A stretch of DNA of 64,000 nt from Anadara kagoshimensis (lineage: Eukaryota; Mollusca; Bivalvia; Arcoida; Arcidae), in the NCBI GenBank assembly GCA_021292105.1, contig CM037864.1:45057109-45121108 (forward strand), given 5' to 3'. The translations under genes and the position numbers were made by a program. The notes under the pieces are model-generated. The model ran no database searches. It was not told where the DNA came from and was given only the letters and a program-made list of their open reading frames with translations. Position 1 is the stretch's first letter, and each line of letters begins with the position of its first letter. Below, piece after piece: positions 16,625 to 56,000 of this stretch.

Positions 16625-19600
16625 AACAGCTTTTTGTAGACCCTGTTTACACCTACTTTTGTAATGTGACTGATAAATATTGCTTGTTATATTACTATAG
16701 TAGTAACTTGTACATTGTTAACTAGCCAATACAATTTGGTTGTTTATACTATTGTAGCTCATCTTTCACATGTACTGATTTTACAGTGACCATTATTATT
16801 CTTCTGTCATTTATCAATTCTGTTGTTTTATATTTTGCTTGTGTGAACACAGTGTCCAAAAATACTTATTCATCTCTAAGTTCTGTAACAAAAAACTTAT
16901 TCATTTCTTAGTTCTGTAACTTCTATTTTAACAGCGACAGATGTTGCTTGGTCATTATCAAGTACTGTAAATTATATGAAGTTGTTTGGATTGTAACTTA
17001 TATTTTTAAAGTGACCATAATGTCGTAATTTATAGGTACTGTTTTTGTTACATTTTGTAAACATATATTACTAAATTTATCCATATATTTAAGCTGACTA
17101 AAGTTACATGTAAATTTATGCAAAAATATATATATATTTTTTAAGATGCATGTAATTATAAACCTAAACACCATTATTGGTATTATTTTTTGTCTTTATG
17201 ATAATTACTGTGGTTATAAAGGAAGAGAAATGAAAGATTGTATGCACCTTTTAAGATTTTTCACTTATATCAAGATGCCATCAGTTGTGGTGAAGTTACA
17301 GAAGTTTATAAATACGTTTGCAATACATGAGTAATGTCATGATCATATCAGTTTTAAGGTTCATCTGAAGGACCCAGATGACAGTCATCTAGCTGCAGCA
17401 CTGTGGTATGAACCCTTGATAGAGTAACACTAGGCTATACCCCTCCCTCCCCACCCATACTGTGGTAAGCTTGGTTCCATTTCTTCTGACCCCACAAAAC
17501 CTTGGACCATAGAGATCATTTCTCTGAAGTTTTATGAAATCCCTCTTAAAAGCAATAAGTTACGACGCAGATCCATTGTGAACTTGACCTTTATGATATT
17601 ATCGAGGTTTAATTTTATGACACACTCATGGTATGTATTTGTATAAGGTTTCTTGGCATTTATGAGAAGCAGGTACGATTTATGGCCCAAACAATGTACA
17701 TGATGTACCCATTCTGCAACCTATAAGATTTGATCTTGGTTCAAGAACATGGCACACCATCAAAACAATTAGTGTGAAGTAGCAATGAGTTATAGCCAAG
17801 ATATTATTTGAATGTGACAGAGACGTGGCAGTTCCTATATATGAATGGTTCCAGGATGTGTTGGGTTTGTAAAAGGTCAAGGTCTCAGTAGCAGTGAGAC
17901 AAAGAGCCTAATGTAAAGGTCAAAGTCACACAGGGTTTGTGAGATACATAGAGGGGATATTAGTCCTCTCTAACAATTCTAGTTTACGACAGGTAAAACA
18001 AGAAAAAATGGCTGAATACTATTTTATTATACACCATTATAATCATTAGAAATTTTATGTTTTCAGAATCAATTTGATTTGGAAGTTAAAATAGTGCTAG
18101 TGTTATGATCTGCCTTGTACTAAAGCTCATTGATGACAACATAATAATTGCTAACACACCAAACCCACAGTGTCAAATTAGGGACCTTGGTGACTGAGTG
18201 GTCTTAAGTAATGGCTTACTGATCACAGAGATGTTAATGTGAGAAAGTTTATCAGTTTGTTGTGATTTTCTCAGTCATTTTGGTTTTCCCCAACGTCCTT
18301 GAACTGAAAACCTTGGTATAAGTAAAATACTAATAACTGGGACATAACACCGTTATTCCACCACAAAGTACATACCATTACTAAATGTACTGATCACAAA
18401 GCCTTCACCAACTACTGTTTCAATGACCAATGGTACATGTATGTAGAAATCAATCACTTACTATTGTTCCAGGGAACTTAGATAGTCCATTTTTTGTCAA
18501 TTAAGCCTTTATGTTTCATGATTTATATTGAATGTTATACATATTAAATCTTAAATATAAAAGCCCAATTAAATGTCAAAACATTGGTGTTCTACAGCCC
18601 TCTGGTTTTGCTCTACATACCGAAAATTAGTTGTTTTTCAAACACTGCACATATGCCCTCTCGTTATCTGTGCCTCATATGCAAATTTAGAGCATTGCAT
18701 GAAGGGTAATTATTATACGCGAGTAAAACCCGAACTGCAGACCTGAATGACAACCTTGTTTTTACCCGTGTGATAATAATGAGTATGCAGGTCAACCAGG
18801 TGTGATGTACACCTATCTGAGGTACATTTAGGTATATATGCAACACATTGGTTTTTCTTTGTTATGAAAAACGACAAAAGTTTCGGTATATACCTGTTTT
18901 GTAATTCAAGTTCAAGTCAGCAAACCTCATAGGTTTGATAGGTGATATGATTTTATTTACAGAAATATCAAGATAAGTACCAATATTACAATACTTGATT
19001 TTATATTAATGATAAATCGACTATCTAAGTTACCTGGAACAATAGTAGTCTACTCACTTATGTTGACTACTCACTCTGGATAATTATTTTTAATTGCTGG
19101 ACAATTTTTATTACAAGTAGAAATGATGAATAGAGGAAGATCGAAAAAATAAAAGATACAAATTTTTTTTCAAAAGTTTATTGTATAAAAATCATATTGT
19201 ATAAATATTTAAGAATTTATGGACGGTAAAAAATCACAGATGTATCATGTATTATTCATTTTTTCTATATGTACCATACAATGGTATTTGAAACCTGACA
19301 ATTACACACATACACACACACATGCATGCATGTACCCACACATACAAATAAAGACATTCACACATTTTCTTGAAATTTACACTATCAATATACACACTAA
19401 CAAACTTCAGATCATAATGATTTACTTAACAAACAGGAATGTAATTACATAAGACATCTACCATATAACAAATACTTAATCAGTAAATCTGTAAGGTCTC
19501 TACTTACAACTGTTTATAAATCTCTGGTCAAAAGCCTTAAAGTAAGAAATACCTTGTACATGTGTTTCAATTGAATTGGTTTTAGTCCTTAATCTTTGAA

Positions 19601-20065
19601 ATTTTGTTTAAAATGGAATCACAAAATTACCTCACCATAGACTGCCTATAAAGTTTGAAGGGATTATCAGGTATGGCAGCTTTCAACATTTTCTCGTACA
19701 TATGACATTATTTATGGAATATGTAGTGTACACAGATTCCTTGTCCTGGAAACATTATGTCCACAAGAATGATAAGGAGGTACATGTTTGCTGGTGAAGA
19801 CCATTGGAAGTTAACCGTAGTAAAGATTCTCCCTATACAACAAGTTAATAAATTTAAGATTCTCCCGACACAAGGTCGTCAACTAAGACAACAAGGTCTT
19901 AAATTAACATCTTATATCAATGAATGGTTCATGATTTAAATAAAAATCCGTAAGTAAGCAATGTCCATGATTTATAAAATAAATAAATAAATAAAACCTA
20001 ACTTATATAAACATTACAAATATACTTTTATAATTAGTAGAACTACAACCTATCTGTAACTAGTA
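16625..20065. other. Spacer between convergent gene 1 and the tectonic gene
   Basis: It should contain both 3' untranslated regions, since the flanking genes converge. I cannot place the poly(A) sites. It holds a 585-bp inverted-repeat element (18461-19045) and a short CA/TG-rich microsatellite near 19306-19335. Confidence 0.5.
18461..19045. mobile_element. 585-bp MITE-like element with nested inverted repeats
   Basis: The left end CTATTGTTCCAGGGAACTTA pairs with the inverted right end, which finishes CCTGGAACAATAG. TA flanks both sides, as for Tc1/mariner-class insertions. A second inverted pair lies inside: ATACCGAAA near 18618, and TTTCGGTAT near 18881. There is no coding capacity. Confidence 0.75.
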
Positions 20066-20323
20066 CTATAATCTCATAACAAACACTAACTGATGTACTA
20101 ACAAAAAACAAATTAACATCAAATAACTGTTATACAAAATACTATCTGACGATCCTGAAAGGAAGGGATACCAAAAGTCATATGGAACTTTGGCCAAAAA
20201 TATGGGTGGTTCTCCTACATAACCTACAGCTGGTTGTGACACATCTACAAAAGAAACGGACTGACTAACTTCAAACGACTGATCTAACCCATCACTTCCT
20301 GCCTGGCAGTACGTACCAACACA
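20066..20323 (-). CDS. Tectonic last exon with hydrophobic C terminus
   Basis: It reads CVGTYCQAGSDGLDQSFEVS, then the conserved VSFVDVSQPAVGY and VPYDFWYPF motifs. The end is hydrophobic, LMLICFLLVHQLVFVMRL before TAG. This could be a membrane segment or a lipid-anchor signal. Confidence 0.93.
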   Translation of the reverse strand, partial: CVGTYCQAGSDGLDQSFEVSQSVSFVDVSQPAVGYVGEPPIFLAKVPYDFWYPFLSGSSDSILYNSYLMLICFLLVHQLVFVMRL

Positions 20324-23300
20324 CTGAAACAAACAAATAACAACACTAGCTTGTAAGATGTCGTGGTTGATGAATGATATAAATTAAAACATTAAAGGGA
20401 TATTCTAACAAAATTATGAACTGAAATTTCTAATATAGTCTTGCAATTAATTTTCAATAAACACACTAAAAGTTCAAATTACAGAATGTAAATTCTATCT
20501 GGGATAGTAGCTGTGTGTCTGACATGTGTACTACAGCTAAACTCTTTATAAATAAAAACTGTTTATCATGACAAAGAGGAAGAGAAAAACATAAAAATGT
20601 TAATTGGGATTTCCCCCAACATGCAAGAAGTTGCCTAGTAGTTGTAATTTATTTACTAGAATGTCGTATGGAGTAGTAATCTCAGTCTAATTATTCAAGT
20701 CTAGAACCCAATAAAGCTCTGTTTAAGATTTCTTGGTCTAATATTTTTGAGTCTTGAATTGGCTAAAGCTCAGGTTAAAATTCCCCTGCCTGGTACCAGT
20801 ATATTCCAGCCCAGAACCTGCTAAAGCTCTGGTTAAGATTTCCCTGCCTGATACCAGTATGTTCCAGCCCAAAACCTGCTAAAGCTCTGGTTAAGATTTC
20901 CCTGCCTGATACCAGTATGTTCCAGCCCAGAACCTGCTAAAGCCCAGGTTAAGATTTCCCTGCCTGATACCAGTATGTTCCAGCCCAGAACCTGCTAAAG
21001 CCTGGTTAAGATTTCCTGCCTGATACCAGTATGTTCCAGCCCAAAACCTGCTAAAGCTCTGGTTAAGATTTCCCTGCCCGATACCAGTATGTTCCAGCCC
21101 AAAACCTGCTAAAGCTCAGGTTAAAATTCCCCTGCCTGGTACCAGTATATTCCAGCCCAGAACCTGCTGAAGCTCTGGTTAAGATTTTTCTATCTAACAT
21201 GACAGGCTTGGATAGATTCTATTAATTTTGCTGATATAAAAGTAGTACTAATAGAATCTATCGCTACTGATCATATGAGATAGTGGTATCTCAACCCAAG
21301 GTCTTATATATTTGGTCCAGAATGAGGCTTGCAGAGGGTTGAGATTTCCCTATCTCATATGACCAGTAGCAAATGATTCTTTTACTCGCACCTCATTCCT
21401 TTAAAAATCCATTAAAAGCTTCTTGGGTCACAGAAAACAGCTGTTTATTCAGGTGTAGGGTGTGTTCTGTCTCAACCCTAGGGTGAGACAAGGAAATCCC
21501 ACATGGGTATCTATGTCACAGGTGTGAGAAATTAGTAAATATACTTACCCTGTATGTTATAGTCTGTTCATTCTCATATATAAATGACACGCCAATAATT
21601 TTAGGTTGTGGATTTATCAAGGATCCTACATTGGCATACATAATAACTATATGCATCCCCATTGAAAGTTTACAGGTTGGTCCTTCAACTGTCTGCTCAC
21701 CCTGCATTGTACAAATAAATAAATTGTAATAATATGTTTGCAATAGTTTACCAAACAATTTTAAATCAGAGATATCTGTCAGGATAGTTTAAGTGGGTCA
21801 TATATAGTCCATCAATAACATAAACCAACAAATTGTAAGTAAATTTGGATGCCATGTATCCAAGTGTTCCCAAAAGGAACCCCACCTGGGAAATTCAGGT
21901 TTACCCAACCGAATGTATGATCAAAATATGAAAAGCCAATGGCTCATCTACTCCAACCAAAGTTTTTTTTCCCTGTAAAGGTACAAAAAGATCTGTTAAA
22001 TAGTTTTCAAGAAAAGTGGCAGAAGAAATGGAGAAAACATTGTTGTATATGTATACCATCCTGACAAGTTTTGATGTCTAGATCAGCGATATTTAGAATA
22101 GATTAAATGTAGTTACTGGGATATTCATATACTATATATTAAGGTTCATAAATAACCTAAGTTTGAAATTTGTATTTTGTAATTATGTTAGAAATTATGA
22201 AAAAAAAACAACCTATGACACTTTCTGCCATAAAAATCATTAAATCAACAACAATAAAAACATCTTTGTTTGTAATCAACAAGAGAGTATTTGAGAAAGA
22301 TTAATCAACAAGAGAGTATTTGAGAAAGATTGGAGTTTTACAGCGTCAGCCTCGTGTTGTTCAAGTTGATATATAATGGTCACCTGTTGTGGAAATCGTC
22401 TATTTTGTCTCAGTATTGGTACCCAGTCTCCTGTCTTTAGTGTATCTGAATTTCCAAATGTAGCCACATATCGATTAAAATTATTTGGATTATCACGATT
22501 AATGGTGTCATTTAATCCCTCTAAAGCTTCATATATGGCAGTTTGCATAGCAACACAATAATCCACTAAATTTAAACTGGTAAAATTAAATCTGAAATAA
22601 CAAAATATATAAAGGTTCTAACATTTATTCAGCCTTACAAAAACGAGAGCCCCTCTTAACGTTGAGGTAAATCATCTTGCAATTTTCCATGTAGAGTCTC
22701 CAATTGTTGTCATCTAAATGGCTTTAAAAATGTTTGTGAGCTCTTTATGTGGTTTTTGTAATTCAAACATAAATTGGTTGGAAATAAATGTTCAGATTCT
22801 TAAAACGGATAATATCGGATATCATATAATCGATATGTTTTTGTTGCAATTTTTGAAAAAAAGAGATGATTACAAATGTATGCCAATACTCAATCAGGGT
22901 TTGTTGAACTGATAATGGCAGTATTCCAAGACTACTTGACCAACTGAACAAAAACAATGTTGACAACTTGAAACCTTGACCCATTATTCAATGGAAGTCA
23001 AGAAACCAAATATGCAGGTAAGACCTGAAAACCTAATATCTCTGACACATGGCGATGTTACAAAATAGAAGTGATGTTAACCCATTAAGATAAATAGTAT
23101 ACCTCAGAAGACATCCTGTGCGTACATTTTCACCAAAGTTGACCTGAACACGGTTTCCTGCATTGTCACACAACTACCAGTCTGTGATGATTTGACCATT
23201 GTTAGGTCATATGTACTCTCTTCAATTAAATACGTAATATTGTTAAGGAAAATAATATAATACTGTGGTGACTTGGTAGAGTGGTTAAAAGGACAGAATT

Positions 23301-28761: not shown

Positions 28762-31700
28762 ACGGCCATAAAAAGGTAAAATATTTTGTCAAACTCCAAC
28801 TCAAATTATAGAGAGTACCAGTACACACATTTTTATGTATGGATTACTTACATTGTTGAGTCATAAAAGACATAAATTCTCAATGTATAGAACATAACTA
28901 TAAACCAAACACTAAAGAAACTATATATCCAAAATATGACTATCAACTAATGTTGAAAAATATGACAAGTTGTCATATACAAAATATGACAAGTTGTCAT
29001 ATACAAAATATGACAAGTTGTCATATACAAAATATGACTGTCAACTAATGTTGTCATATACAAATATGACTGTCAACTAGTGTTGTCATATACAAAATAT
29101 GACTGTCAACTAATGTTGTCATATACAAAATATGACTTTCAACTAATGTTGTCATATACTAAATATGACTGTCAACTAGTGTTGTTATATACAAAATATG
29201 ACTGTCAACTAGTGTTGTCATATACAAAATATGACTGTCAACTAATGTTGTCATATACAAAATATGACTTTCAACTAGTGTTGTCATATACAAAATATGA
29301 CTGTCAACTAATGTTGTCATATGTAAAATATGACTGACAACTAATGTTGTCATACAAAATATGACTGTCAACTAATGTTGTTATATACAAAATATGACTG
29401 TCAACTAGTGTTGTTATATACAAAATATGACTGTCAACTAGTGTTGTTATATACAAAATATGACTGTCACCTAGTGTTGTCATATACAAAATATGACTGT
29501 CAACTAGTGTTGACATATACAAAATATGACTGTCAACTAATGTTGTCATATACAATATATGACTGTCAACTAGTGTTGTCATATACAAAAAATTGACAAA
29601 TAAATATGTGTATAAAAAGAGCTATCATAAGAAGATTGTAACTCTCAAGCAAATCTAGCCCATCCAAAACTTTTATAATTGATGTCAAGACTAATGTTTA
29701 CAAAAAGCATATGTTGTGTTTTGTACAGACCAGCTAAAAAAACTTACCTTAACAACTTTAATGAAGTTGTAATAAGATGCTGCAGACAAATAAGGCGTCT
29801 GTTCACATGTAGCTTGTGTTAAATCTATTATAGGTCTGACACAGTCAAAATTATCATCTTTTAAAAATGCTGAAAATAAATATAACAGGATTTAATTACT
29901 AATATGAAACTAAGACTTATTTCTTGGTTTATGGGTACAATAAACATCATCAAAAGAGGTAAGTATGACATCACAGTTGAGAATTATGTGGAAGGTTGAC
30001 TTTGTTAGTGACAAAGTTTTTATTTAGAATGTAGAGTGTATCTATAACACATAAATAAAGTCTCTGTCTGATCATCAAAATTTAAAACATGTCACAATTT
30101 CTATTCTTCTTGTTTTACTAAATTCATCTTAGAAAGGCTTAATATGTACATACAAAGGTATAACCTTAGAGATAAAACTGATACAAATCTGGCACCAGTT
30201 TGGTGTCTTGTAAACAGTCAAGATAATGACTTGTGTAATGTTTGTTTTTATTGTTTGTCCAAACATTTAGCATGATACTATATCGATTCAGTAGTCTAAT
30301 GTACAACTGTTTGAGGTTAAAAAGAAAAAAAAATAAAGAAAAAAAAAAGAAAATTAATATTCTTATGTCTTGTCTGACAAAGACTTGAAATAAGGTAGTG
30401 GATGTTTCCTTTCAGAAAGTGATTTGAATTTAGTTAATAAATCAAAGTCCTTCAGGTGAGATCATAAAAAGTCAAATGACCTGAGTCACAGTAGGCATGG
30501 CATGACAAAGAATTCTTATACCAGCTCATAAATATCTGGTTACATCTAAGCATATGTGAAATTTTCTTGATTGAGATATGAATTTCCATCAAATGTATCA
30601 ATTAATCACACTTAACCCTTAGCACTACTAAAACATTTTGGTAAAATATCTATTAAACATATCCTACATACAAACCATGCTCAAATGAATCAAGATTACA
30701 ATCACTGCTATTGTGTCAATAATGGTGTAGCACTTTGTATTTAAGTATACTACAGCTCTTGTTTTAAAATAAAACCCAGTTTTCTTTTCTCCAAGTCAAA
30801 AGTTCAAATGTGACATTTTTAACTGTTAAAGAATGGAGAAAAAAATTGTATTTTACACCACCATCAAGATTATTTCACTTATATTGATGTAGTCAGTTTT
30901 GGAATGGTGGAGGAAACCTGATTACCCTGAGAAACCACTGACTTTGGCGAGCAAACTGAGTAACATTCTCACACTAGGAATTATCAAGAGTTGAAATAAA
31001 ACCCTAGTCAGTTAGACACCCTGCCCCCTGTGATGGACTTATTGAGGGAACAATAAAAATAAAGACACATATGCCAGTTTAAGACACCCTGCCCACTTGT
31101 GATGGACTTATTGAGGGAACAATAAAAATATGCCAGTTTAAGACACCCTGCCCCCTGTGACAGACTTATTGAGGGAACAATAAAAATATGCCAGTTTAAG
31201 ACACCCTGCCCACTTGTGATGGACTTACTGAGGGAACAATAAAAATATGCCAGTTTAAGACACCCTGCCCACTTGTGATGGACTTACTGAGGGAACAATA
31301 AAAATATGCCAGTTTAAGACATCCTGCCCCCTGTGATGGACTTATTGAGGGAACAATAAAAATAAATACATGTTTGCCAGTTTAAGACACCCTGCCCACT
31401 TGTGATGGACTTATTGAGGGAACAATAAAAATATGCCAGTTTAAGACACCCTGCCCCCTGTGACAGACTTATTGAGGGAACAATTAAAATATGCCAGTTT
31501 AAGACACCCTGCCCACTTGTGATGGACTTACTGAGGGAACAATAAAAATATGCCAGTTTAAGACACCCTGCCCCCTGTGATGGACTTATTGAGGGAACAA
31601 TAAAATATGCCAGTTTAAGACACCCTGCCCACTTGTGATGGACTTATTGAGGGAACAATAAAATATGCCAGTTTAAGACACCCTGCCCACTTGTGACAGA

Positions 31701-34700
31701 CTTATTGAGGGAACAAAAAAATATGCCAGTTTAAGACACCCTGCCCTTGTGATGGACTTACTGAGGGAACAATAAAAATATGCCAGTTTAAGACACCCTG
31801 CCCCCTGTGATGGACTTATTGAGGGAACAATAAAATATGCCAGTTTAAGACACCCTGCCCCCTGTGACAGACTTATTGAGGGAACAATAAAATATGCCAG
31901 TTTAAGACACCCTGCCCACTTGTGATGGACTTATTGAGGGAACAATAAAAATATGCCAGTTTAAGACACCCTGCCCACTTGTGACGGACTTATTGAGGGA
32001 ACAATAAAAATATGCCAGTTTAAGACACCCTGCCCCCTGTGATGGATACATGTATGCCAGTTTAAGACCCCCGTGATGGACTTATTGAGGGAGTTTACCT
32101 GTTGGATTGATGTCTGTGCACAAATTAGAACCTAATCGTCTGGGTATGTTAAGATATCCACTAGCTAAAGAACTGTACACAACAAAAACAGGTTCTCCAG
32201 TCTGAAAAACAACATGATAAAACCCAATAAATGTCATAATAATGTCATTTCTTAATAAATACCTCAATAATAAACGGTAAATTTTAGTTACAATCTTAAA
32301 TATTTCCAAACCGTTTCTACCGTCTACCATACTTCTACCAAGTATAGTAATGGCCATTATGACAACTCCAGACACCAAATGAGAAATTGCAATTGTATAC
32401 AATATGTTATCTATCAAAATTTCACTAAAATATATTTATCATAAGTTCACCAATTGATTTCATTGAAGTTTTGTTAAGATTGATCAGAGCATATATTTCG
32501 GGCTCATTAGTCTTATCCTTGTTTCAATGGTGTGGTGTTACCTTTTCACATATTGATGAGAAGAGAAATTGTTGACAACTATTCTTACCTTATATGAGGC
32601 TGGATAAGGTGTACTTATGGCATAACCAGGACGATATGTGGGTCCAGCATATCTATTGTAGTAGGTCTCAAATGTTACATTATCTGTAACAAAATCTGGA
32701 ATGTTGTAGTAATTTCTTTGTTGGTCTGAAAAATAAGAAAAATATCTAAACAGATTTTGTAATAAATTGGTGGCGGCTGAAATGGTGTTTCATGCTAGAG
32801 TCAAGTTTACCCGTGTTTAAGCCATACTGGAAGGGCCAGTTCTGAAAAAGTTGGATGTGTGCATAGAAAAAACTTTCTAATTCAACAAATGGACTGACTT
32901 ACTTTCTTACACTAATGTCTGTCCTAGTGGGAATGAAACCTTGGCAATATGAAACATGACAATAGTGATAAAACTGTTTAAAAAGATGATGATTAAAAAT
33001 CTAAGATATTTTAAGATATTTTATTATCTATTATATTAGTAGTTTTAATGTTTCTCAACATCCAGTCAACTTTATTGGGATTCTGTCTCATTTTTGTTTT
33101 TGACGCATTTCTGTAAAGATTACACTTGCTGAACATAGTGTTTTGATCGTTTTCTATTTAGAACAAAGACCATGTATCTGGCAACAAACTGAAACAATTC
33201 TGTCATCCACAAGGTTTCCATTAACATTGGTGTCCTTTGTAATTTGACTCTTTAATTCATTTTTGAGTATTAGTGACAGCCCTGCTTCAAATGGCTGATA
33301 CTGGTATATACTTACAGTTATCCAAGTAAATACAGAAAAGTCCATCTTGAGTATAAGTTTTATTGTATGGTGCATTGTCTAGAAGTAACAGATCTGACTG
33401 AACACAAAGTCTGTCATCCACACTAAAATATAACATTTTATAATATAAATAATAAAAAAAACTTAGACAGTCACAATTCATCAAGTTTAGATTTGTTCAG
33501 CTTATGAAAAGTAAACAAATACAAGTTAACTATTCCAAATGTCTTCTGGTAAGAAGTGGTATTCAGTAGAAAATAATGAATTAATATTTATTTCTCAAAG
33601 CAAATAATAATAATAAACTGATATTATGATATACAGAGGAAACAAGTACTTTGAGTGCTATATACATTAGTGATGTGCAGATGATCAATTATAACTGATA
33701 ATCAATTGAGACCAGATTTTAAGCGTTTGAATAAAGTATTGAAAAATCAATAATGGTTTCCTTTTTAGCAGAAAATTATGGTCAACCCCCCCCCCCCCCC
33801 AAAAAAAAAAAAACCCACAAAGGTATGGCTACCCCCTACCAACCCCCATTACACACATTCTCTCTTTCTCATCTCTGATCTTACGATTGGGAGGAAGGCA
33901 GACATTCTGTAAATGCATTTTGATCTTGTACACTACAATCAGCATCACAACAACAGTTTATATCACATGCATTTCCTGTTAAGTCACATGGACAAGTTCC
34001 AAGATCTGTAAAAAAAAAAAAAAAAAAAAATTTAAAAAAATTACCGTACTAATTTTAGATTTAAGCACCTGTCTTCGTTTTATCATTATGCCAGGTATCT
34101 TTAAAAAAAAGGTGGATGTTATTACCACATATTTTTTATACCCATATAACCGTATGCATGTAACTTCATACATCGGTTGTCTAGGATTAAATAGTTCCAT
34201 TTTGAATTAAAATGAATTAAAACAAAATTTTATCGAATATTTTCCTAAAAAGTTGCTGTTTAAATGATTGATGATCAATCTTTGATCGTGATGAACTGCA
34301 AAAAACGATCCAACCGTATGACGAAAACAAAAAGGCAGATCTAAAACCATATTTACGTTTTTTTATTAAAATAATCTATTATTTGAACCAAATAAGATAA
34401 ATATCTATTAAATATCCGTTAATTATTACTAAATTGTATGTATTGCCAATAATATGCATAAAGTTATAAAGCCCACGTACATGTATACTATAATATATGG
34501 GTATAAAAATGTGGTAATAACACATTTGTTATTGACACATACGAGGCAATAACCACTTCGTAAAAAAAAAGATGTCTTAATGTGTCTATGATGTATTTCA
34601 TAATACCATAAACAATATGTATACCAATTTTCAAAACAAATCATTTCAAATGTAATCAGGATTTTCCCTAAGAAATATAGAACATTAGGTTTGACCTGAT

Positions 34701-35388
34701 AGGCCTACATAATCTGCATTACCCCTATACTAAAATTACTATGAGAGTAGATTAGTTTCCAAAGGTTTGATCTACTAGTAAATAATCTGCATTTGGACCA
34801 AGCTGAAAGTTAAAAAAATCTTCTGTGATAGAACTTTGTCTGCTGTGCTGTCTTAATGGTCACACCCGTCAGTCATATTAATTTTGAGCATCTACTACCG
34901 GGGTAGGGTGGAGGGTTTTGAGGATCTACTACCGGGGTAGGGTGTGGGGGTTTTGAGGATCTACTACGGGGGGGGGGGGGGGGGGGGGGGGGGTGGGGGG
35001 GGGGGGGGGAATTTTGAGCATCTACGGTATTGACTAACAAAACCGTGTGATGTAGATGATTGAGAGACATCAATAGATCAATAGGGACATGTTTAATTTG
35101 GTATTTGTCTTAAAGGTAGCCACCTGTGTTAGAAGGAACCACTGAGGGTGGTTCAGTGGGTATCGGTGTTGTAGTTGGCGGTGTCGTGGTGGTCGTTGGT
35201 GGAACTGTCGTCGTCGTGTTCTCTGCAGATGCATTGCTATTAGCCGTTGTTCCTGTTACATTTACTGTAGTTGCTGCAGGTACATCCGTAGATGTTTGGG
35301 AAACTACTGTGGATGAATTTATCAACAATACCAATAAAACACTACAAGCCAAGGCACGTAACAATTTTGTCTTCATGTTTACCGCCAT
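20066..35388 (-). CDS. Tectonic family protein (TCTN1/TCTN3-like), about 15 exons
   Basis: Tectonics are transition-zone proteins that control membrane composition and Hedgehog signalling at cilia. Exons, in gene order: 35388-35124, 34005-33885, 33422-33316, 32725-32589, 32201-32099, 29869-29748, 28324-28223, 27372-27316 (Thr-rich), 24655-24486, 24017-23894, 23604-~23567, ~23217-23103, 22591-22384, 21701-21549, 20323-20066. The protein starts with a signal peptide and a Thr/Pro stalk. It then has the diagnostic Cys cluster DINCCCDADCS, VDDRLC, the ESGNPGYVVGKPV block, FGENVRTGC, VATFGNSDTLKTGDWVPI, VGSLINPQPKI and SVSFVDVSQPAVGY. A hydrophobic C terminus follows, as in TCTN3. Two exons need a one-base correction to stay in frame, and one donor (near 23567) is uncertain. 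The family call is firm. TCTN1 against TCTN3 is not settled. Confidence 0.93.
20745..21190. repeat. About 59-bp minisatellite, 7 copies, in last tectonic intron
   Basis: The units contain CCTGATACCAGTATGTTCCA and AACCTGCTAAAGC. They differ by single substitutions and small indels. Confidence 0.92.
21549..21701 (-). CDS. Tectonic exon 14
   Basis: 51 codons from GEQTVEGPTCKLSMGMHIVI, including YANVGSLINPQPKIIGVSF. The NPQ motif and spacing match tectonic C-terminal regions. Donor is AGG|GTAAGT. Confidence 0.93.
22281..22334. repeat. Short direct duplication
   Basis: AATCAACAAGAGAGTATTTG and its continuation occur twice in tandem in the intron after tectonic exon 13. Confidence 0.9.
22384..22591 (-). 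CDS. Tectonic exon 13
   Basis: The peptide includes NLVDYCVAMQTAIYEALEGL and RYVATFGNSDTLKTGDWVPI. I place the donor at CAG|GTGACC, which keeps phase 0 for the next exon. A later GT in the same phase (GCT|GTAAAA) is possible. Confidence 0.87.
23103..23217 (-). CDS. Tectonic exon 12 with an apparent one-base deletion
   Basis: One frame reads STYDLTMVKSSQTGSCVTMQ. A second reads NRVQVNFGENVRTGCLLR and joins exon 13 in phase. The switch lies in GCAGGAAACCG. From recalled tectonic sequence, 11 residues usually separate this Cys from the Phe-Gly pair. Here there are 32 nt, one short of 33. Confidence 0.72.
23268..23340 (+). mobile_element. tRNA-like SINE head fragment
   Basis: TGACTTGGTAGAGTGGTTAA resembles an A box and GGGTTCAACACCC a B box. 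No SINE body was followed. It lies in a tectonic intron. Confidence 0.4.
23567..23604 (-). CDS. Tectonic exon 11: SGNPGY block, 3' end uncertain
   Basis: It continues exon 10 as Q-ESGNPGYVVGKPV, a conserved tectonic motif. No good donor follows. The possible GTs after CCA or GTC are non-consensus, and the open frame runs on through PALEWRILQPKN to a stop. The boundary is a guess, and a short further exon may be missing between here and 23217. Confidence 0.65.
23894..24017 (-). CDS. Tectonic exon 10
   Basis: The peptide runs from VEYILTHDGTKGLTRSQVRF to AATFQ, ending in phase 1 at GTGTAT. Confidence 0.9.
24486..24655 (-). CDS. Tectonic exon 9
   Basis: The peptide runs from APEFDTLNLYNNSYTMNIEL to NVVLR, phase 1 in and 0 out (CGG|GTAAGT). 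Confidence 0.9.
25874..26040. repeat. About 71-bp direct repeat, 2-3 copies
   Basis: The blocks share ATTGTGAATCATCAACATCA, CAGGTTGGAGCAATTTTCAT and TATTCTTTTCAATAGTACAA. The third copy is partial. Confidence 0.85.
27316..27372 (-). CDS. Tectonic exon 8: 57-nt Thr/Pro-rich, skippable
   Basis: The acceptor is CATCTTTTAG and the donor ACAG|GTACAG. In phase 1 it reads DTNDTTTASPVTTPAPTTT. It is phase 1 at both ends, so inclusion or skipping keeps the frame. Confidence 0.65.
28223..28324 (-). CDS. Tectonic exon 7, frame problem near its 3' end
   Basis: It opens TPYLFTWIINGTEVTTTTTK. It is 102 nt, so it ends in phase 0, but the next exon needs phase 1. Near the 3' end a different frame (QPPPAGNAT) would end in phase 1. 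One extra base in the CAACCACCACC stretch would reconcile the two. Confidence 0.7.
28926..29595. repeat. 33-bp minisatellite, about 20 copies, in tectonic intron 6
   Basis: The unit contains AAATATGACTGTCAACTAGT and GTTGTCATATAC. Because 33 is divisible by three, several frames on both strands stay open and give false repeat ORFs (for example LSYTKYDCQL). A variant at the left end, ATATGACAAGTTGTCATAT, is palindromic. Confidence 0.95.
29748..29869 (-). CDS. Tectonic exon 6
   Basis: Begins AFLKDDNFDCVRPIIDLTQA and ends NFIKVVK at GTAAGT, phase 1 in and 0 out. Confidence 0.92.
31012..32092. repeat. About 58-bp minisatellite, about 18 copies, abutting tectonic exon 5
   Basis: The unit contains AAGACACCCTGCCC, TGTGATGGACTTATTGAGGG and AACAATAAAAATATGCCAGT. 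The last partial unit runs into the exon 5 donor. CTTATTGAGGGA is shared by the array and the donor flank. Confidence 0.95.
32099..32201 (-). CDS. Tectonic exon 5
   Basis: The peptide TGEPVFVVYSSLASGYLNIP continues to CTDINPT, phase 0 in and phase 1 out. The donor GTAAACTCCC runs directly into a 60-bp minisatellite. Confidence 0.92.
32589..32725 (-). CDS. Tectonic exon 4
   Basis: The peptide runs from YQQRNYYNIPDFV to PYPASYK. It has a TTTTTCAG acceptor and an AAG|GTAAGA donor, and ends in phase 0. Confidence 0.93.
33316..33422 (-). CDS. Tectonic exon 3
   Basis: Begins SVDDRLCVQSDLLLLDN and ends at GTAAGT in phase 1. It matches the conserved segment after the Cys cluster. Confidence 0.93.
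33784..33812. repeat. C-run followed by A-run
   Basis: A long C homopolymer joins directly to an A homopolymer in a tectonic intron. Lengths in such tracts are often unreliable in assemblies. Confidence 0.9.
33885..34005 (-). CDS. Tectonic exon 2: Cys-rich signature
   Basis: The peptide DLGTCPCDLTGNACDINCCC continues with DADCS, the hallmark of the family. It ends at a GTAAGA donor in phase 2. The acceptor follows a poly-T tract on the minus strand. Confidence 0.95.
34897..35012. repeat. G-rich tandem repeat and near-pure G tract in tectonic intron 1
   Basis: Repeats of GATCTACTACCGGGG and GTTTTGAGGAT lead into about 40 nt of G broken by one T. The plus strand could form a G-quadruplex. The transcript would carry the C-rich strand. 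Confidence 0.9.
35124..35388 (-). CDS. Tectonic exon 1: signal peptide and Thr/Pro stalk
   Basis: ATG at 35388-35386 begins MAVNMKTKLLRALACSVLLV, a hydrophobic leader, followed by a run of Thr, Pro and Asn. A second in-frame ATG lies four codons on. The donor ACAG|GTGGCT is weak, but it gives phase 1, which makes GAT with exon 2 and a clean TDLGTCPCD junction. Confidence 0.85.
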
Positions 35389-36562
35389 GTTGTATACAAA
35401 GCTGAATCATGGGTAGTTTTCAATAGAAACAAATATTTTATTTAAAAGAAATGTTAAAAAGAATAACGATTATCAAATCTGATAAAATCTTATTATTTAT
35501 TTCTAGATAGAACACGAAGTTTACAAATTATTTGAAGAAAAAAAATTTTGACGGAAAATACCGGAGATAAACGATTTCACCGGCGGAAAATCAAACGATA
35601 AAGCACAACCATAACAAAGCGTGAGGTCGACCGGCTGACATCTTAAAACGAAAGAAAGAGACCAGAAAATGTAAACTATACACTGATTAAGGATTGTGAT
35701 TGTGTATTCCACAATGTCATAAAATATTGCCTATTAGTTATTAGATGCCATTTTCAAATCTTAATCGTTTGTCAACATTTGTTTTCGTGCACCTGACCGG
35801 GGGGGGGGGTTGTTAATGACTAGGACTAGGGTTCAGAACTGTATAGGCTATGACTTATAAGCATATCGAATTTAAATCCTTTTACTGAGATATATTGAAA
35901 GACTTGTCACTTCATGAGTAACTCCACCACCCAGTGCTCTAACATCATTCTTGCTGTAGTCATTCAGTTTTGATTTCAGATAATTATGGAGACGTTTTCC
36001 AATGCTAATGGAAAGTAGCAACTGAAGGGGTCAAATGTTTAGTAATGTCACACCAGTGCCCAGTGGTTTCAAAAAAGCCATCAAGGCGACAAAAGTTGTC
36101 TGCTACTTTTGTGGATTGGGATGAGTTGGTAGAATGAAGTTGGGATGAGTTGACTTGTATTCAGAAAATAACCAGATTTTTATCAGATTTACCTCTTACA
36201 GTGCTGTCAATATGTTTTTAATGTATGATCAAGGGGTATAATCTGTAATTGCTATCAAATTTTTGAATGGGTAACTTGGTATGCAAGTTTAATAGCATCA
36301 ATATCAAATGGAGACACCTTAATGCATGCAGATAGAACTTGCCGATACAAACTTTGAAGTAACAATGAATATTGTATAAAGTGACCAGATTAAAACTTGA
36401 ACTTTTATAATTTTTCACTGTTTAATGTAAAATATAATAAAAATAAATGACATAACTTTTATGGTAGTTCTGACAGTTTCTAACTCTTAAATAAAAATAA
36501 AAGCATGCACAGACAACCTAAAGTATATGACAAAATGTTTAAGATTATTTGTTTCATTGTAG
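35389..36562. promoter_or_regulatory. Probable bidirectional promoter region, tectonic / gene 3
   Basis: The two start codons are divergent and about 1.2 kb apart with no other gene between. A candidate X-box lies at 35416-35430. A 9-base G run sits near 35800. I could not identify TATA boxes or start sites with confidence. Confidence 0.5.
35416..35430 (-). promoter_or_regulatory. Candidate RFX X-box upstream of the tectonic gene
   Basis: GTTTTC-AAT-AGAAAC fits the degenerate X-box RYYNYY-N(1-3)-RRNRAC bound by RFX factors that drive ciliary genes. It lies 28 bp upstream of the tectonic ATG. The motif is degenerate, so a chance match is possible. Confidence 0.45.
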
Positions 36563-36673
36563 ATGCCTGCCTCAGACTATGGATGGATGTTGTCTGAGAA
36601 TAAACCATTGTTTCAGGTATATGGAACTAAAAGAAAATTTGAAGGAAATGACAGTTGTACAGCAGAGGGAATG
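36563..36673 (+). CDS. Gene 3, first recognised coding exon
   Basis: The acceptor TTCATTGTAG immediately precedes ATG. The donor is ATG|GTATGT. An internal CAG|GTATAT is also in phase 0 and could serve as an alternative donor. Confidence 0.72.
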
Positions 36674-39600
36674 GTATGTATTAAAACAAATATAGTTCAT
36701 CATCAACAATTGTTAATCACATATTATAGTAATAATTGTTGTGGTCATCAGTTGTAGCAATAAAAACCTATGTAATGGGAATTACAGAATACAGTGGTCA
36801 GTGCCAGACTCCAGTACCATCTTACCAACACTTATTGGATGTTTATATTTTGCTAGTTTAATTAATTCCTTGGTCTATGTTTACCTCCACTAGCGGTTGA
36901 GATAACCTTCACTAGCAGGGAAACTTAACCTCACAAGTAGGAAAGTTGATCTCCAATAGCGGGGAAATTTAAATTCATTAGGAAGAAAGTTGACATCTTT
37001 TAGCGGGAAAGTTAACCTTCACTAGCAGAAAATTTGACCTCCAGTAGTAGGCAGTTTAAACTTCATTATCTGGGAAAATTGACCTCTACTAACAGGAAAG
37101 TTAACCTCCACTAGCGGGAAAGTTAACCTAAATTAGGGAAAAATTTGATCTCCACTAGCAGGAAAGTTGACCTCTACTAGTGTATCTTTCAGTTGTGTGA
37201 CTTGGAGTAATTTGAAATAACAATCTTGATCACAAACATGACTTAAATTTCAGCTGGATAGAAAATAACCAATGCTTGATATCTGTCAATTTAATTTCTG
37301 CTAATTAACTGTGGCTGGTGACATCTCAATATAAGTGAAATAATTTTGACTGCAGTGTAAAAAATCCATTCAAACAATCATTTATCTGAATTTAAGACAA
37401 GATTAATTTCCCATTGACATTTTCCTCATGATGAAGAATTATTATCTTATTTCTATTGATGTAGGTATGTGAGTCAGTCGGGAAGAGAAGATGTGTCCCT
37501 CAAGAAGAACAATGTGTAAACCAGACCTGTAATATACAAGAAATAAATCACAATTCACTGATGTCACAAAATTATAATTTGAATTCTCCTTCCGTCCAAA
37601 CACAACAGGTAAGTCAAATAATTACTATTTAACTTGGCTTTATTCACATGTGTGAATTATTACCTGTCAGACAATTGGTAGGCTAAGGGGGGTTAGAAGT
37701 TTTAGTTGACATATAACAGAAATGGGAATCACTAATATAAAATTTACATTCAGAGTTCCATCTATTTGTAGCTATGGATACTAATATCTACAAATCACTA
37801 ACACTGGGAGAAATAAACTACCAGTACCTATAGTTCTGTATAAGAGATTTTCATCAGTCTTATTGGTAACCAATTCTATCCATGTCAGAGATGAAGCTTA
37901 ACTATTTTGATTTGGGAGAAAAACTCACTTAAAAAAAGAAGCATTAATAGTATTAAATAGCTATAATGTGTACAATTTAAGGGCCCAAACTTATTTTTTC
38001 TACTGATCCCTTACTAATCTTAACCCCTATGTGCTCAAGATCATGGGTAGGCTTGTACCAATGTACATTTTAGGTCACATGTACACTGCCCTTGGTGAAC
38101 TATTGCAACATGGTTTGTCTGCTCCCGTGTGCTAACTTGTTAAAATTTTCAACTTCTTCTCAGGAATCACTGGGCCAATTTCAACAAAATTTGGTCAGTA
38201 GCTTAATTAAGTATGTAGAGGGACATAAAAATTGTAAATTTTGGGTCCCCACCCTTCTGGGACCACATGAAACTGAGTGAGTCCAAAACAATGGAAAAAC
38301 ATACTATTTTAAAAAAATAAAATCATCTCTGCTCTGGGATCATTGAGAGACAAACTATTTGGTTGTGACTTCCTTAGTGTTATACCTGAGTTGTAAAATT
38401 CATGGATCCAGGAGGTGTCCTGCAATTTAGGTTCATGATTAAAACAGCAACAGAATACCAATTTGCTCAGGAACCATCAACTTTCTATATAGGTATATGC
38501 ATTTGAAAGTTGCAGGAACTGAAGCAAAGCTTATATTGAACTTGGATTGGCTGAATTTGAGATTTAAAACAGTTTATGTTATCTTTTACAGGATTTCATG
38601 ACAATGAATCTTGATGAACATAACTCCACGTCAGTAGACCCCACACAACAGCATCAGCAGGGAGAGTTTATACATCAACATTTGAACCACCAGCCACAAC
38701 AGATTTCTGTTACACCAATGGGAGATCATATACATAATGAATCTGGATCACATGAGCAAATTCATCATTGCAGTCAGGTATAAAATTGCTATACACAGTG
38801 ATTTCACATTGAAGTATTCAAAAGGGAGGGGGTTCCTAAAGAAGTCATGGAATTAATTTTTTTCTGGAAAAGTGCTTGAATTTTATGTATACTCTTTTAA
38901 AAGTACAGGTACTTGAATTTAAACCAATAGCATGTAGAATTCTATATAAATTGCTGTATAATAATTTAAACAAGAATGTAAAAAAATGCTCAATGAATTC
39001 CAGAAATATAAACTTGATCTCATTGTTGTTGATATATATCCTATTTTAACTTTTTAATAACTAAGTGTAGTTTCATGTCTGATTTTAAACCGTGTAAAAG
39101 TAAAAGGCAGACAACTTGCTACAATTGTAAAAGACCAGTAACCCCAGATACAAGATGATATATCAAATAGGGTGGTAAGCACAGATTGATTCAATGGAGT
39201 TTTATCTTCCAGTCAAGAATATTTCACTTACACTTAGACTTCACCACCTATAGACGAAGTAACAGAAATTTTTACCTTTGCAATGTGCAGTACTCCTGTT
39301 GTGACACAGGGCATTGGTTTTTAAGGTATCTTCTGAAAGGCCTATAAATGTGGAACAAACTGTATTATCTGCTTAAAAACTTGTAAGTCTCGAGGGAAAT
39401 GGGTAGGTTTTTTGTAAAATCAGAAGTGTAGCTGTCAGACAGTGAGTGAGTAATATCAGGGGTAATATACATGTATGTATTTTTAACACAACATGTTCTG
39501 GCTGTATCATTGCCAGATCTTGACCCTTTTTATATACACACATTTTTAACACTGCAGAAACATAACTTTTTCAGGACAAGATGATAATGGACCTACATGA

Positions 39601-40922
39601 TGAAACCTACTCTGTTGTCAGTGATGTTGATATATGTGATGTAAATCAAGCATGTATAATGATGGATTCAGATTTTGTACCAAACCATGAACAGTATAAA
39701 CAAGTAGAACCTAGTAAAATATCTGGGTAGGTTACATATGACAAACTAATGATCAGTATAAACCTAGTAAAATATCTGGGTAGGTTACATATGACAAACT
39801 AATGATCAGTATAAACCTAGTAAAATATCTGGGTAGGTTACATATGACAAACTAATGATCAGTATAAACCTAGTAAAATATCTGGGTAGGTTACATATGA
39901 CAAACTAATGATCAGTATAAACCTAGTAAAATATCTGGGTAGGTTACATATGACAAACTAATGATCAGTATAAACCTAGTAAAATATCTGGGTAGATTAC
40001 ATATGACAAACTAATGAAAACAGATGTGTTAAAAGTGAATTTATTATTGAAAGGTTTATGAATAAAAAATAACACATGGTTAAATTGATATCGCATACAG
40101 ATATACTGTAAATATATTAATTTTAGCTGTGTACTGAATTAAGTGATTTTTGTGATGATACAGTAGTGTTAATTTAAATACACTGCTAAATTAAATATGA
40201 TCATAATGCATAAGCTGATCTATGGGATTTACGGAAATTCAAGTCCACATGAATTCACACACATTATAATTAGTGCTAAAGTTTATACATGGTAAAATGA
40301 ATACATTTACAGTATTGCATTAATCAATCACCTAATTACCTGTCCGAGGAGTTGATGTAGAATATGATACCAGTTAGGACAAACATTATTAAGTAAAAGA
40401 TTTAATGTATCTTTAATCAACACAACTTTATAAATTGGCATAAATATTTTATCCTGAATAAATTATGTGTTTTGCTCTTGATCTAGTTTATAATACCCCC
40501 CCCCCCTTCAAAGAAGAGGGTGTACTGGTTTACATTTGTCTTTTTGTCTGTCCCTCCAAAACAAAATTCTTTGGAAGTTTTCTCAGCAATTACTAAACTC
40601 GGCTATTTGAAACTTTGTATGCAAGTTCAGTTTTTATGAGGTCCCATGCCATAAATAACAATTTCAAGTCTGCCAGACATCTACCTCCTATTTACTGATA
40701 TAGTTTATTTTTCAACATTTACGGTCAATGGGATAAGCAGGGGATATACTAAGATAGCAGTAGCTCAAGATTTCTTGTTTTAATAACCTTATCATTAGTA
40801 CATTTGTTTTTGTTGACAGGACAGGGGACATGGTAGTGCACTCAGGGAGACCGAGATCATTTTGTCGTCCATCATGGGATGGACATATGGAGATGGGATC
40901 ATACATATCAGATTACTATTAA
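36563..40922 (+). CDS. Unrecognised Gln/His/Met-rich protein, five exons
   Basis: Exons 36563-36673, 37465-37608, 38592-38777, 39575-39726 and 40820-40922 join with phases 0, 0, 0 and 2 and give about 231 residues. The protein starts MPASDYGWMLSENKPLFQVY followed by GTKRKFEG. It has a basic patch (GKRRC), several Cys in exon 2, Gln/His-rich repeats in exon 3, an acidic Met-rich segment in exon 4, and the C terminus GHMEMGSYISDYY. There is no signal peptide or membrane segment. Basic patches followed by Gln-rich sequence would suit a small nuclear cofactor, but that is a guess. The ATG sits directly after an AG acceptor, so an upstream exon, non-coding or coding, is expected. Confidence 0.75.
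36890..37190. repeat. Degenerate about 30-bp tandem repeat
   Basis: Variants of CTCCACTAGCGGGAAAGTTAA recur about ten times with many substitutions, in a gene 3 intron. Confidence 0.8.
37465..37608 (+). CDS. Gene 3, exon 2
   Basis: The peptide opens VCESVGKRRCVPQEEQCVNQ and continues with TC. Four Cys lie within 22 residues. It has a CAG|GTAAGT donor and is phase 0 to 0. Confidence 0.78.
38592..38777 (+). CDS. Gene 3, exon 3 (Gln/His-rich)
   Basis: DFMTMNLDEHNSTSVDPTQQ is followed by HQQGEFIHQHLNHQPQQ. It has a TTTTACAG acceptor and a CAG|GTATAA donor. Confidence 0.78.
39205..39400 (-). mobile_element. Degraded SINE fragment (family B)
   Basis: Reverse-oriented body words (AAGAATATTTCACTTA, ACTTCACCACCTATAG, GACACAGGGCATTGGT) match the SINE at 48335-48645. 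The tRNA head is missing. Confidence 0.6.
39575..39726 (+). CDS. Gene 3, exon 4 ending in a tandemly repeated donor
   Basis: DKMIMDLHDETYSVVSDVDI leads to the end PSKISG. The donor TCTGG|GTAGGT is the first of six near-identical copies spaced 53 bp apart. Use of the first gives phase 2 and a clean join to exon 5. Confidence 0.78.
39709..40016 (+). repeat. 53-bp tandem repeat carrying an exon tail and 5' splice site, six copies
   Basis: The GGG of CTGGGTAGGT occurs at 39725, 39778, 39831, 39884, 39937 and 39990, exactly 53 bp apart. Each unit contains the last bases of exon 4 (CCTAGTAAAATATCTGG), the donor GTAGGT and intron sequence. The last copy has GTAGAT. Confidence 0.97.
40820..40922 (+). 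CDS. Gene 3, last exon
   Basis: TGTTGACAG precedes it. It reads GTGDMVVHSGRPRSFCRPSW, then DGHMEMGSYISDYY and TAA at 40920-40922. Confidence 0.78.
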
Positions 40923-53069: not shown

Positions 53070-56000
53070 CTGTAAAGTTAAATCAGAATTGAAGTAAACT
53101 GTTTATAACCAAATGAGATAAAAAATCTAGCTTTTACTTGGATTAATCCCAATAATCCAAATAATTTTTTTAAATTAAATTTGTTAATTTAAACATAGAT
53201 TATATAAGAATGACAAAAGCACCTTGCATTCACAAATACATTTTGGGTAAGCCAACAATGTATCATAATACAAATAAATTTGCTACATTTGAAAGCAACA
53301 TTTCAGATCATAATCAGCAAATTAATAGTTTTTAGGCCTAAAAAAATTAAATGTGTTTCCACTAACCTAACCAACCCTAACTTTTGACAAACACTTTTCA
53401 AGTTGGCACCCTTGTCTGTGTGGTAAATGTAAGTCAAAACATTTTTGTCTTTGGCCTTATCAACATTGAGAAAATTTTTATATATGGCATATGCTCCTCT
53501 GTTCCTCATACAGGAGACCTTACAATATGAAGGCAATTACAATGGTATTAACAGAATACTGAAACTTCTCTTAGCTCAAACTCTTCAAATATACATGTAG
53601 TCCAACCTGCCTTAAAGGCAACCTGCTTATAAAGGCCAGTAAAATTGTATCCCAATTGTTCTTTATTAATAATTTTTGAACCTGTATATAAAGGCCACCT
53701 GCCCATAGAGTCACTTTTACTGGTTCCCTTGGGTGGCCTTTACAGGCAGGTTTAACTGGCATTTTTCTGAACAAAACTATAACATTGGATGCCAATGTTT
53801 AAGTTGGATATATGTGTATAAGATATAAACTCACTTTTGTGCTCCATACAGGCATGCAGAAAAAGCAGATCAGGAACAAAAACTTCTTGAAATTAAATCA
53901 TATTCATCAAGTCATAAATGGTTGATGAAATATTTAAGAGAGGCAATGAATAATAACCATAGACAAAATAATGTTACCTTCTCTGAACTGTCCTGCCTTT
54001 TCACTGTACTTCCCACCTGGCGGTGCATATAATGTACGTGTTTCACGGTTCGCTTTTTTCCCACCGGCACCCTCTGAATCATATGTAATTGGAGTGTATC
54101 TCTTTTGACTATAAAAAAGAAAAGTTTTATTTTAAATAGAGAGAAAAATCAATGTCAAAAAATTGTGAGCTGTAGTATTTAATAAAACTATTCCTAATGA
54201 TTACATCAACCTTAAGTTGCCTGTAAACAGTGGACTCTTCCGTCATCTGCTATCATTGCTGTGGAAAAACATATTGTACATCTCCATAGGGAGAACATTT
54301 TCTGTTGCTGTGGAATAATGGATCCTTTTAATTAATTGTGATCTCTTGGAATGACTCAGTGCAAGTGATTTGAAAAAAACATTTTGATAACCAGAAGTCA
54401 ATCCAATATTACTATCATCTTTTACACATTAAACTGACTTCAAAATGTGGTCTTCTTTATCTAATCAAAATCTACCAACAACTGAATACATTTTGTTAAC
54501 AAAGAAAATGGTCCACTTTTGTCTTTCCAGTTTTGTTTTGGATATTATAACCACCCCAAACTTCTGGCTATATATTGTAGCGATAAAGATGTTTTGTCAT
54601 GATCAGCTGAGAAGTATGGTTGGCTGCTTGTTAGTCTATGTAAGGGATAACAGTTTAATCTAAAATAATATTACAAACATGCTGACAAGCACACAGCTGT
54701 TAATTTATCAAAACATGTTTTGTTGTTTATTAAGGTCTGCTTACCCTGCTGTTTGAACTGTTTCTTGTGTTTGTGGTTTCTTTTGCTGCAAAATTAATTC
54801 AAAATTTTACATAGACATTTTTAACAATCATGTTTAATATTTTATGTAAATAAGTTAAGGCAAGCTGGTTCTGCTTCATAGTTTTGAATAAAATGGAAGG
54901 GCCTTTTCATAATATGAAAATGATATTTAAAGATTAGAACTGCATCAAGACTCTTGTGATCTGTGCCTTGATGTCTTCTAGATTCATTTTGGGATAAGAC
55001 TTGATTTACTTTTGGATTATTCTTCAGCTAAGAGGGATGCTTAGGAAAATGCAAATAGAATGAAAGAAAAGCGTGCTATGTAAAGTGTATCACCTAAGTA
55101 ATACAGGAGTAACCATGTAATGATATACATATTCCAATAAAACCAGTTTAAACAATTTCTGTGCAATTACCACAAAACAAGTTTAAAATACCATGATATT
55201 CTGGTACAGAAAAATGTCCCAATAGAATATAATATCACAATAAATTGCTGCTAAAAACTATGAATCTTGAAAATTTAAATGTTACATTGTTATAAACATG
55301 GTATGTCATCTAACGGTTTTGTTAAATTTCATGTTTGTAGTAGATAACTTTGAATATCATTATATCAGTGCAGTCAAAGTAAACCATAGTTATAAACAAA
55401 CTAAAATTACTCTTTGGTTTTATTTATATAAGTACACATGATTCTGTTATAGATACATGTATAAGTACAAGTTGTTACATCGATGTACATAGCAGTTTAG
55501 TTAATTAATTTTGCAATACATGTATGTTACAATACCATTTGTCACTATAACCCCATTTCTCTGTAACTTTGTAATCTGGACCTGTGAATAACAACCCCCA
55601 GCTCCCTTTTATGATGTTTAAAGACACATTTAAATATATATGTTTATAGTCTTCCACTAAGGGTTTCCATGACACTGTTACCACAAATTTGTAAGTTGGA
55701 GGACTGTGGAATAAATCTTTTATCAATGTGTTAATACATGTATAACTCACCACTAATGGTTTCCATGACACTGTAACTACGGCTTTGTAAGCTGGGGGAC
55801 TGTGGAATAAATCTTTTATCAATGTGTTAATATTTGATGTTATTCTTAAAGCTGCTACTTTTATTTTATTCTGAAAATAAAAAATAAAAATATAAAATTT
55901 TATGATATACTGTAAATAAAGACTCGTGAATTTGATACCTTTTTCCACAATTATGATCTAAAATGTATTAAGCATCAATTGACATCACAAAAGCTGCTTT

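Follow-up and report, generated by a model that had tools for sequence, protein, structure and literature searches.

The 53-bp tandem array that crosses the end of exon 4 of a predicted gene (gene 3) in the window (the whole 64-kb stretch of DNA analysed here, C8:45057109-45121108) is probably an ordinary minisatellite that has grown across a splice donor, the first donor being the one used and the others leaving with intron 4. The units lie head to tail, are nearly identical, have a length within the class of roughly 10-100 bp and vary in number between two copies of the region within one assembly.

Six candidate donors at the predicted end of exon 4

Tandem Repeats Finder (TRF) placed the array at 39708-40017 on the + strand (period 53, 5.8 copies, 99% matches, score 613); a run of six nearly identical 53-bp units does not arise as a chance match, and the array is real. 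Aligned in register, the units start at 39708, 39761, 39814, 39867, 39920 and 39973. Units 1-5 are identical, and the first 45 bp of unit 6 match them with one substitution (GTAGGT to GTAGAT), after which the native intron follows. The array straddles the predicted exon 4/intron 4 junction and offers CTGG/GT six times (the slash marks the exon end), with the GT at 39727, 39780, 39833, 39886, 39939 and 39992. Donor 1 (TGG/GTAGGT, 39727-39732) and donors 2-5 (same sequence, within 39780-39944) each form a duplex of -10.0 kcal/mol with the 5' end of U1, and donor 6 (TGG/GTAGAT, 39992-39997), in which the G at position +5 is replaced by A, is weakened to -6.2 kcal/mol. That every unit carries the predicted end of exon 4 together with its donor, as an earlier note on this DNA had proposed, was seen in all six units; its six nearly identical donors are more exactly five identical ones and a sixth without the +5 G, and the 17 exonic bases that it gave to each unit are 19 contiguous bases (AACCTAGTAAAATATCTGG) plus a further exonic stretch, CAGTATAAAC, which lies beside a common ATGA and is also repeated in the units. 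A 9-bp piece between these is restricted to the real exon.

Among the donors of gene 3, those of the array are second in U1 pairing to the donor of exon 2 (CAG/GTAAGT, -12.1 kcal/mol). On the + strand, a value of -10 is reached by 14 of 3793 GTs, including five in the array and one in intron 3 (TGGGTAGGT, 39403, -10.0), so U1 energy is not enough to define a donor. Mini-introns between the units were also considered and are unlikely, because the AGs of the unit have weak pyrimidine tracts: by a simple count, 5-7 of the 14 preceding bases are pyrimidines, compared with 7-11 of 14 at the four real acceptors, of which the exon 4 acceptor, with 7, is no richer than the unit. RNA folding of the array, computed without a control, gave small hairpins over the donors. 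An exact 32-base pattern of the unit had no match in genome and viral contig collections, which represent other organisms, as expected.

Gene model and outcomes of donor choice

The exons of gene 3 were predicted ab initio from sequence alone. The model has five exons on the + strand, with AG and GT at each internal junction and a single open frame of 231 aa. The coding part of exon 1 runs from the ATG, which is preceded by AG, to a GT donor with a phase 0 join (36563-36673, 111 nt); exons 2 (37465-37608, 144 nt) and 3 (38592-38777, 186 nt) are open and flanked by AG and GT, as is exon 4, which with donor 1 spans 39575-39726 (152 nt) and ends in phase 2. The coding part of exon 5 (40820-40922) follows a GACAG acceptor and ends at a TAA (40920-40922). 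In the neighbourhood, a Pfam DUF1619_N match (33875-34012, - strand, E 1.9e-9), which we take to represent the tectonic family of ciliary proteins, lies inside a gene running from about 35390 to 32000 and arranged head-to-head with gene 3. Elsewhere in the window, an open frame at 55505-55957 (- strand) matches API5 (apoptosis inhibitory protein 5; E 4.7e-16), and a partial DDE domain at about 6110-6256 (- strand) matches Transposase_1 (E 5.3e-12).

Only donor 1 of the six keeps the frame open into exon 5, giving in translation of the predicted model a protein of 231 aa that ends SDYY. An in-frame TAG (39728-39730, + strand, within the GTAG at 39727-39730) ends translation at KISG in any product made without donor 1. 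Since GG/GTAG reads GGG TAG in frame, donors 2-6 and retention of intron 4 all lead to one and the same truncation, a 198-aa protein ending KISG and lacking the last 33 residues, and the divisibility of 53 by three is irrelevant. The expectation that each donor choice shifts the frame was thus mistaken, and the expectation that most choices would change or truncate the C terminus was right about truncation, which takes a single form. Exon 4 would measure 205, 258, 311, 364 and 417 nt with donors 2 to 6, with the stop 49, 102, 155, 208 and 261 nt, respectively, before the last junction. In vertebrates, nonsense-mediated decay follows a rule of 50-55 nt. By this rule, mRNAs from donors 3-6 are expected to be targets, and the donor 2 product would sit on its edge.

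The same TAG, standing right after the exon, agrees with a reading in which exon 4 is terminal: the 3' end would lie in intron 4, the stop would be KISG-TAG, the array would be 3' untranslated sequence and exon 5 would rarely or never be joined. Two AATAAA motifs do lie downstream, at 40061 and 40457. We regard this reading as quite improbable, however, as two AATAAA in intron 4 are no excess over the 2.4 expected in shuffles, and the frame behind the good acceptor at 40820 is in phase with donor 1 and has a stop of its own. An intronic polyadenylation signal, taken as a candidate in its own right, was rejected on the same count.

A second copy of the region

A whole-genome search (1.115-Gb assembly, 36 contigs) located the array at two places only among the scored candidates: in the window and at C8:46539713-46540519 on the other strand, 1.4 Mb away, within an inverted copy of the region. 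To judge from its repeats and its size, the genome looks like that of a bivalve-like mollusc. The second array has 11 units, every one with GTAGGT; units 1-9 equal the window consensus, and unit 10 departs from it by a single T to G at position 17. Because the last unit there reads GTAGGT, the GTAGAT of donor 6 in the window is probably derived. The unit, its junction and the 9-bp difference are common to both copies. The exon of the second copy retains the 9-bp piece, with two substitutions within it, so the founding events predate the separation of the copies. Array length has changed since then (6 versus 11 units), and variation in copy number, as the earlier note had suggested, is thus borne out within one assembly. 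The possibility it had raised, that individuals with one copy would expose the array as an assembly artefact, has lost weight, as the second copy too holds a long array with the same derived junction; with 11 units there, the repeat is no one-off assembly error.

Between the copies, 7 codons differ in exons 1, 2, 4 and 5, 4 of them changing the amino acid, and exon 3 of the second copy (C8:46541292-46541479) has 10 substitutions and a frameshifting 2-bp insertion, which may be a real lesion or an assembly error. In total, 18 of 696 aligned exon sites differ, compared with 40 of 880 noncoding sites at more distant positions of introns 3 and 4 and 4 of 698 beside the array. The low divergence beside the array relative to the distant noncoding sites gave a Fisher P of 5.6e-7 in a test made after the profile had been seen; as low tracts are common here and the test was post hoc, we claim no conversion hotspot. 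These comparisons bear on a further reading, namely that an erroneous gene model or a gene in decay leaves the donors without any role, the array being plain intergenic or pseudogene sequence. The frameshift in the second copy would agree with it, as would the searches with the 231-aa protein, which gave no Pfam family at E up to 10, one chance-level match among PDB sequences (E=0.96) and, beyond the two copies, one further match listed in the genome (E=1.68); the three + strand frames of 30001-39902 likewise had no Pfam match at E up to 0.1. The window copy nevertheless keeps five exons with canonical ends in one continuous frame, and its exons differ less than the distant noncoding sites, with the qualification that noncoding sequence near the array is lower still. 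We therefore consider a wrong model or a decaying gene very unlikely.

The two copies may be alleles or paralogues. The window aligns with C8:46517593-46576974 by inverted matches, in pieces, from window position 1 to 62319, and the homology continues past both ends. A probe at 44.400 Mb, 0.65 Mb to one side of the window, has its partner at 47.17 Mb (93-94%), and one at 45.250 Mb, about 0.13 Mb on the other side, at 46.38 Mb (96%); for 45.700 Mb the partner was found at 42.42 Mb (85-94%), amid many repeat matches, and no partner turned up, at E up to 1e-150, for the first 2.2 kb of a probe at 46.462 Mb. Neither of two control places had a clean second copy on the same chromosome: C8:12.0 Mb showed no copy above 78%, and C3:20.0 Mb showed a 92% copy 7.4 kb away and a 92-93% copy 0.75 Mb away, within a repeat family. 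In the window, 109 of 128 500-bp bins were sufficiently aligned, with a median divergence of 2.9% and 27 of the 109 at 1% or less, so that divergence forms a mosaic of near-identical and 3-10% tracts. Such a mosaic over at least 0.85 Mb favours an unpurged second haplotype over segmental duplication; the alignments thus suggest that the second copy is a retained haplotype, and a large inverted duplication appears less favoured. If it is a haplotype, 6 and 11 units would be alleles of one animal. One near-identical tract, window positions 17001-23000 against C8:46.56 Mb, comprises twelve 500-bp bins at 0.0-0.2% (about 6 kb) between flanks at several per cent. Just past the right-hand side of the window, C8:45137089-45139265 and its partner near 46.504-46.508 Mb hold a long tandem array whose units, judged from match offsets, measure roughly 80-160 bp.

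Origin and fate of the array

The real exon reads ATGAACAGTATAAAC-AAGTAGAAC-CTAG..., units 2-6 are preceded by ATGATCAGTATAAAC-CTAG..., and the intron after the last unit likewise starts after ...AATGA. These junctions would be accounted for if a tandem duplication had joined the intron (about 40017) to the exon (about 39687) at the common ATGA, so that the end of the exon was duplicated together with its donor. Loss of 9 bp between two AAC triplets in one of the resulting units, along with one A to T change, would then account for the 53-bp unit, which would have expanded through unequal exchange or slippage. The TRF table of the 64-kb window holds 27 arrays with unit lengths totalling 1189 bp, from which the expected number of founding units on a splice boundary is 0.15 for the 8 boundaries of gene 3 and 0.74 for an assumed 40 boundaries, in a rough count that ignores selection; one such unit in 64 kb is, on this count, unsurprising. 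When arrays were compared between the two copies, 9 of 14 rows were matched and 5 had no match, and 6 of the 9 matched arrays differ in unit number (17.5 versus 7.0 and 13.7 versus 16.0 among them), so the splice-site array is not exceptional.

Exon 4 is flanked by introns of 797 and 1093 nt, which places it in an exon-definition setting. Under the preferred reading of a minisatellite grown across a donor, the upstream acceptor at 39575 would define the exon with the nearest donor, donor 1, and the remaining donors would be removed inside intron 4, close to neutrally. In the accessible text of Carranza, Shenasa and Hertel (2022; PMC9225289), five of five human minigenes that paired two identical strong donors in an exon-definition context spliced exclusively from the upstream one, and the upstream donor was favoured among human donors of equal strength in long introns; in human data without equalised strength, downstream donors were favoured in about 60% of events. 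The first-donor preference considered in the earlier note would agree with these tests of equal donors, which concern human genes, and we infer its carry-over to the present animal. Two points count against the preferred reading: coding constraint on the exons is weak when the copies are compared, and distal units can be usable, as the human gene IFI6 is reported, in the text available from PMC4526556, to use downstream repeat units as donors.

The latter precedent also fits a reading of the array as a source of regulated isoforms, in which distal donors or retention yield the 198-aa KISG protein or decay, and unit number sets the ratio. Donors 1-5 are equal in U1 pairing and 6 and 11 units occur within one assembly, as this reading would have it. 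We still find it unlikely: donors 2-6 give the same product and therefore no graded protein output, identical strong donors in the human minigenes led to upstream use only (PMC9225289, as far as its accessible text goes), and neighbouring arrays vary as freely without any known donor inside. A more elaborate proposal makes the array a copy-number rheostat of U1 sites. Surplus U1 snRNP, recruited by the extra units, would strengthen definition of exon 4 and shield intron 4 against premature polyadenylation; a leaky array would instead feed a decay-prone KISG isoform past the second unit, where the distance from stop to junction goes from 49 to 102 nt. The 6- and 11-unit copies would then differ in full-length output; we think this highly improbable. 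On the preferred reading, a minisatellite can take in a splice site and do little predicted damage, since the native donor is still the first.

Comparison with known systems

The repeat of human IFI6 has a short unit. The minisatellite of IFI6 (also 6-16 or G1P3) provides several splice donors (Turri, Cuin and Porter 1995, Nucleic Acids Res 23:1854). As far as the accessible parts of these reports describe it, it resembles the present array in lying at the end of an exon and in bringing a donor with each successive tandem unit; here too the units overlap the (predicted) exon end and each carries a donor. It differs from the present case in that the unit here is 53 bp long, the host is not human, an in-frame stop stands right at each downstream donor and the donors are known from sequence. 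De Grassi and Ciccarelli (2009; PMC2812944) described human genes in segmental duplications that carry variable internal tandem repeats at their exon-intron boundaries, with 27 intron modifications reported after inspection. Their cases, according to the available text, share with ours boundary minisatellites that have different unit numbers in near-identical copies of a gene; they are mostly new introns within exonic repeats, whereas here an existing donor has been multiplied and the units add to the intron. Given these two precedents, the kind of system is already known, and the array is not a new one. Our literature search found no mollusc case of a minisatellite that multiplies a donor, which is no proof of absence.

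Two further systems are comparable in part. The dual-specific splice sites of polyubiquitin UBC (Duan et al. 2024, PMC10809524) are also spaced periodically by a tandem repeat; in the available text, the repeated site there lies in coding repeats and serves both as donor and as acceptor, and in arrays of this type the intron length is a multiple of the unit. In the present units the AGs are pyrimidine-poor by the simple count given above. The constructs of PMC9225289 likewise place successive identical donors downstream of a single acceptor, with long introns on either side; as described in the accessible text, these were two designed donors in human cells, whereas here there are six to eleven natural ones. 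If gene 3 is expressed, its 6- and 11-donor copies, in otherwise similar sequence, would provide an in vivo test of the choice among identical donors, for which the published tests in that source used two.
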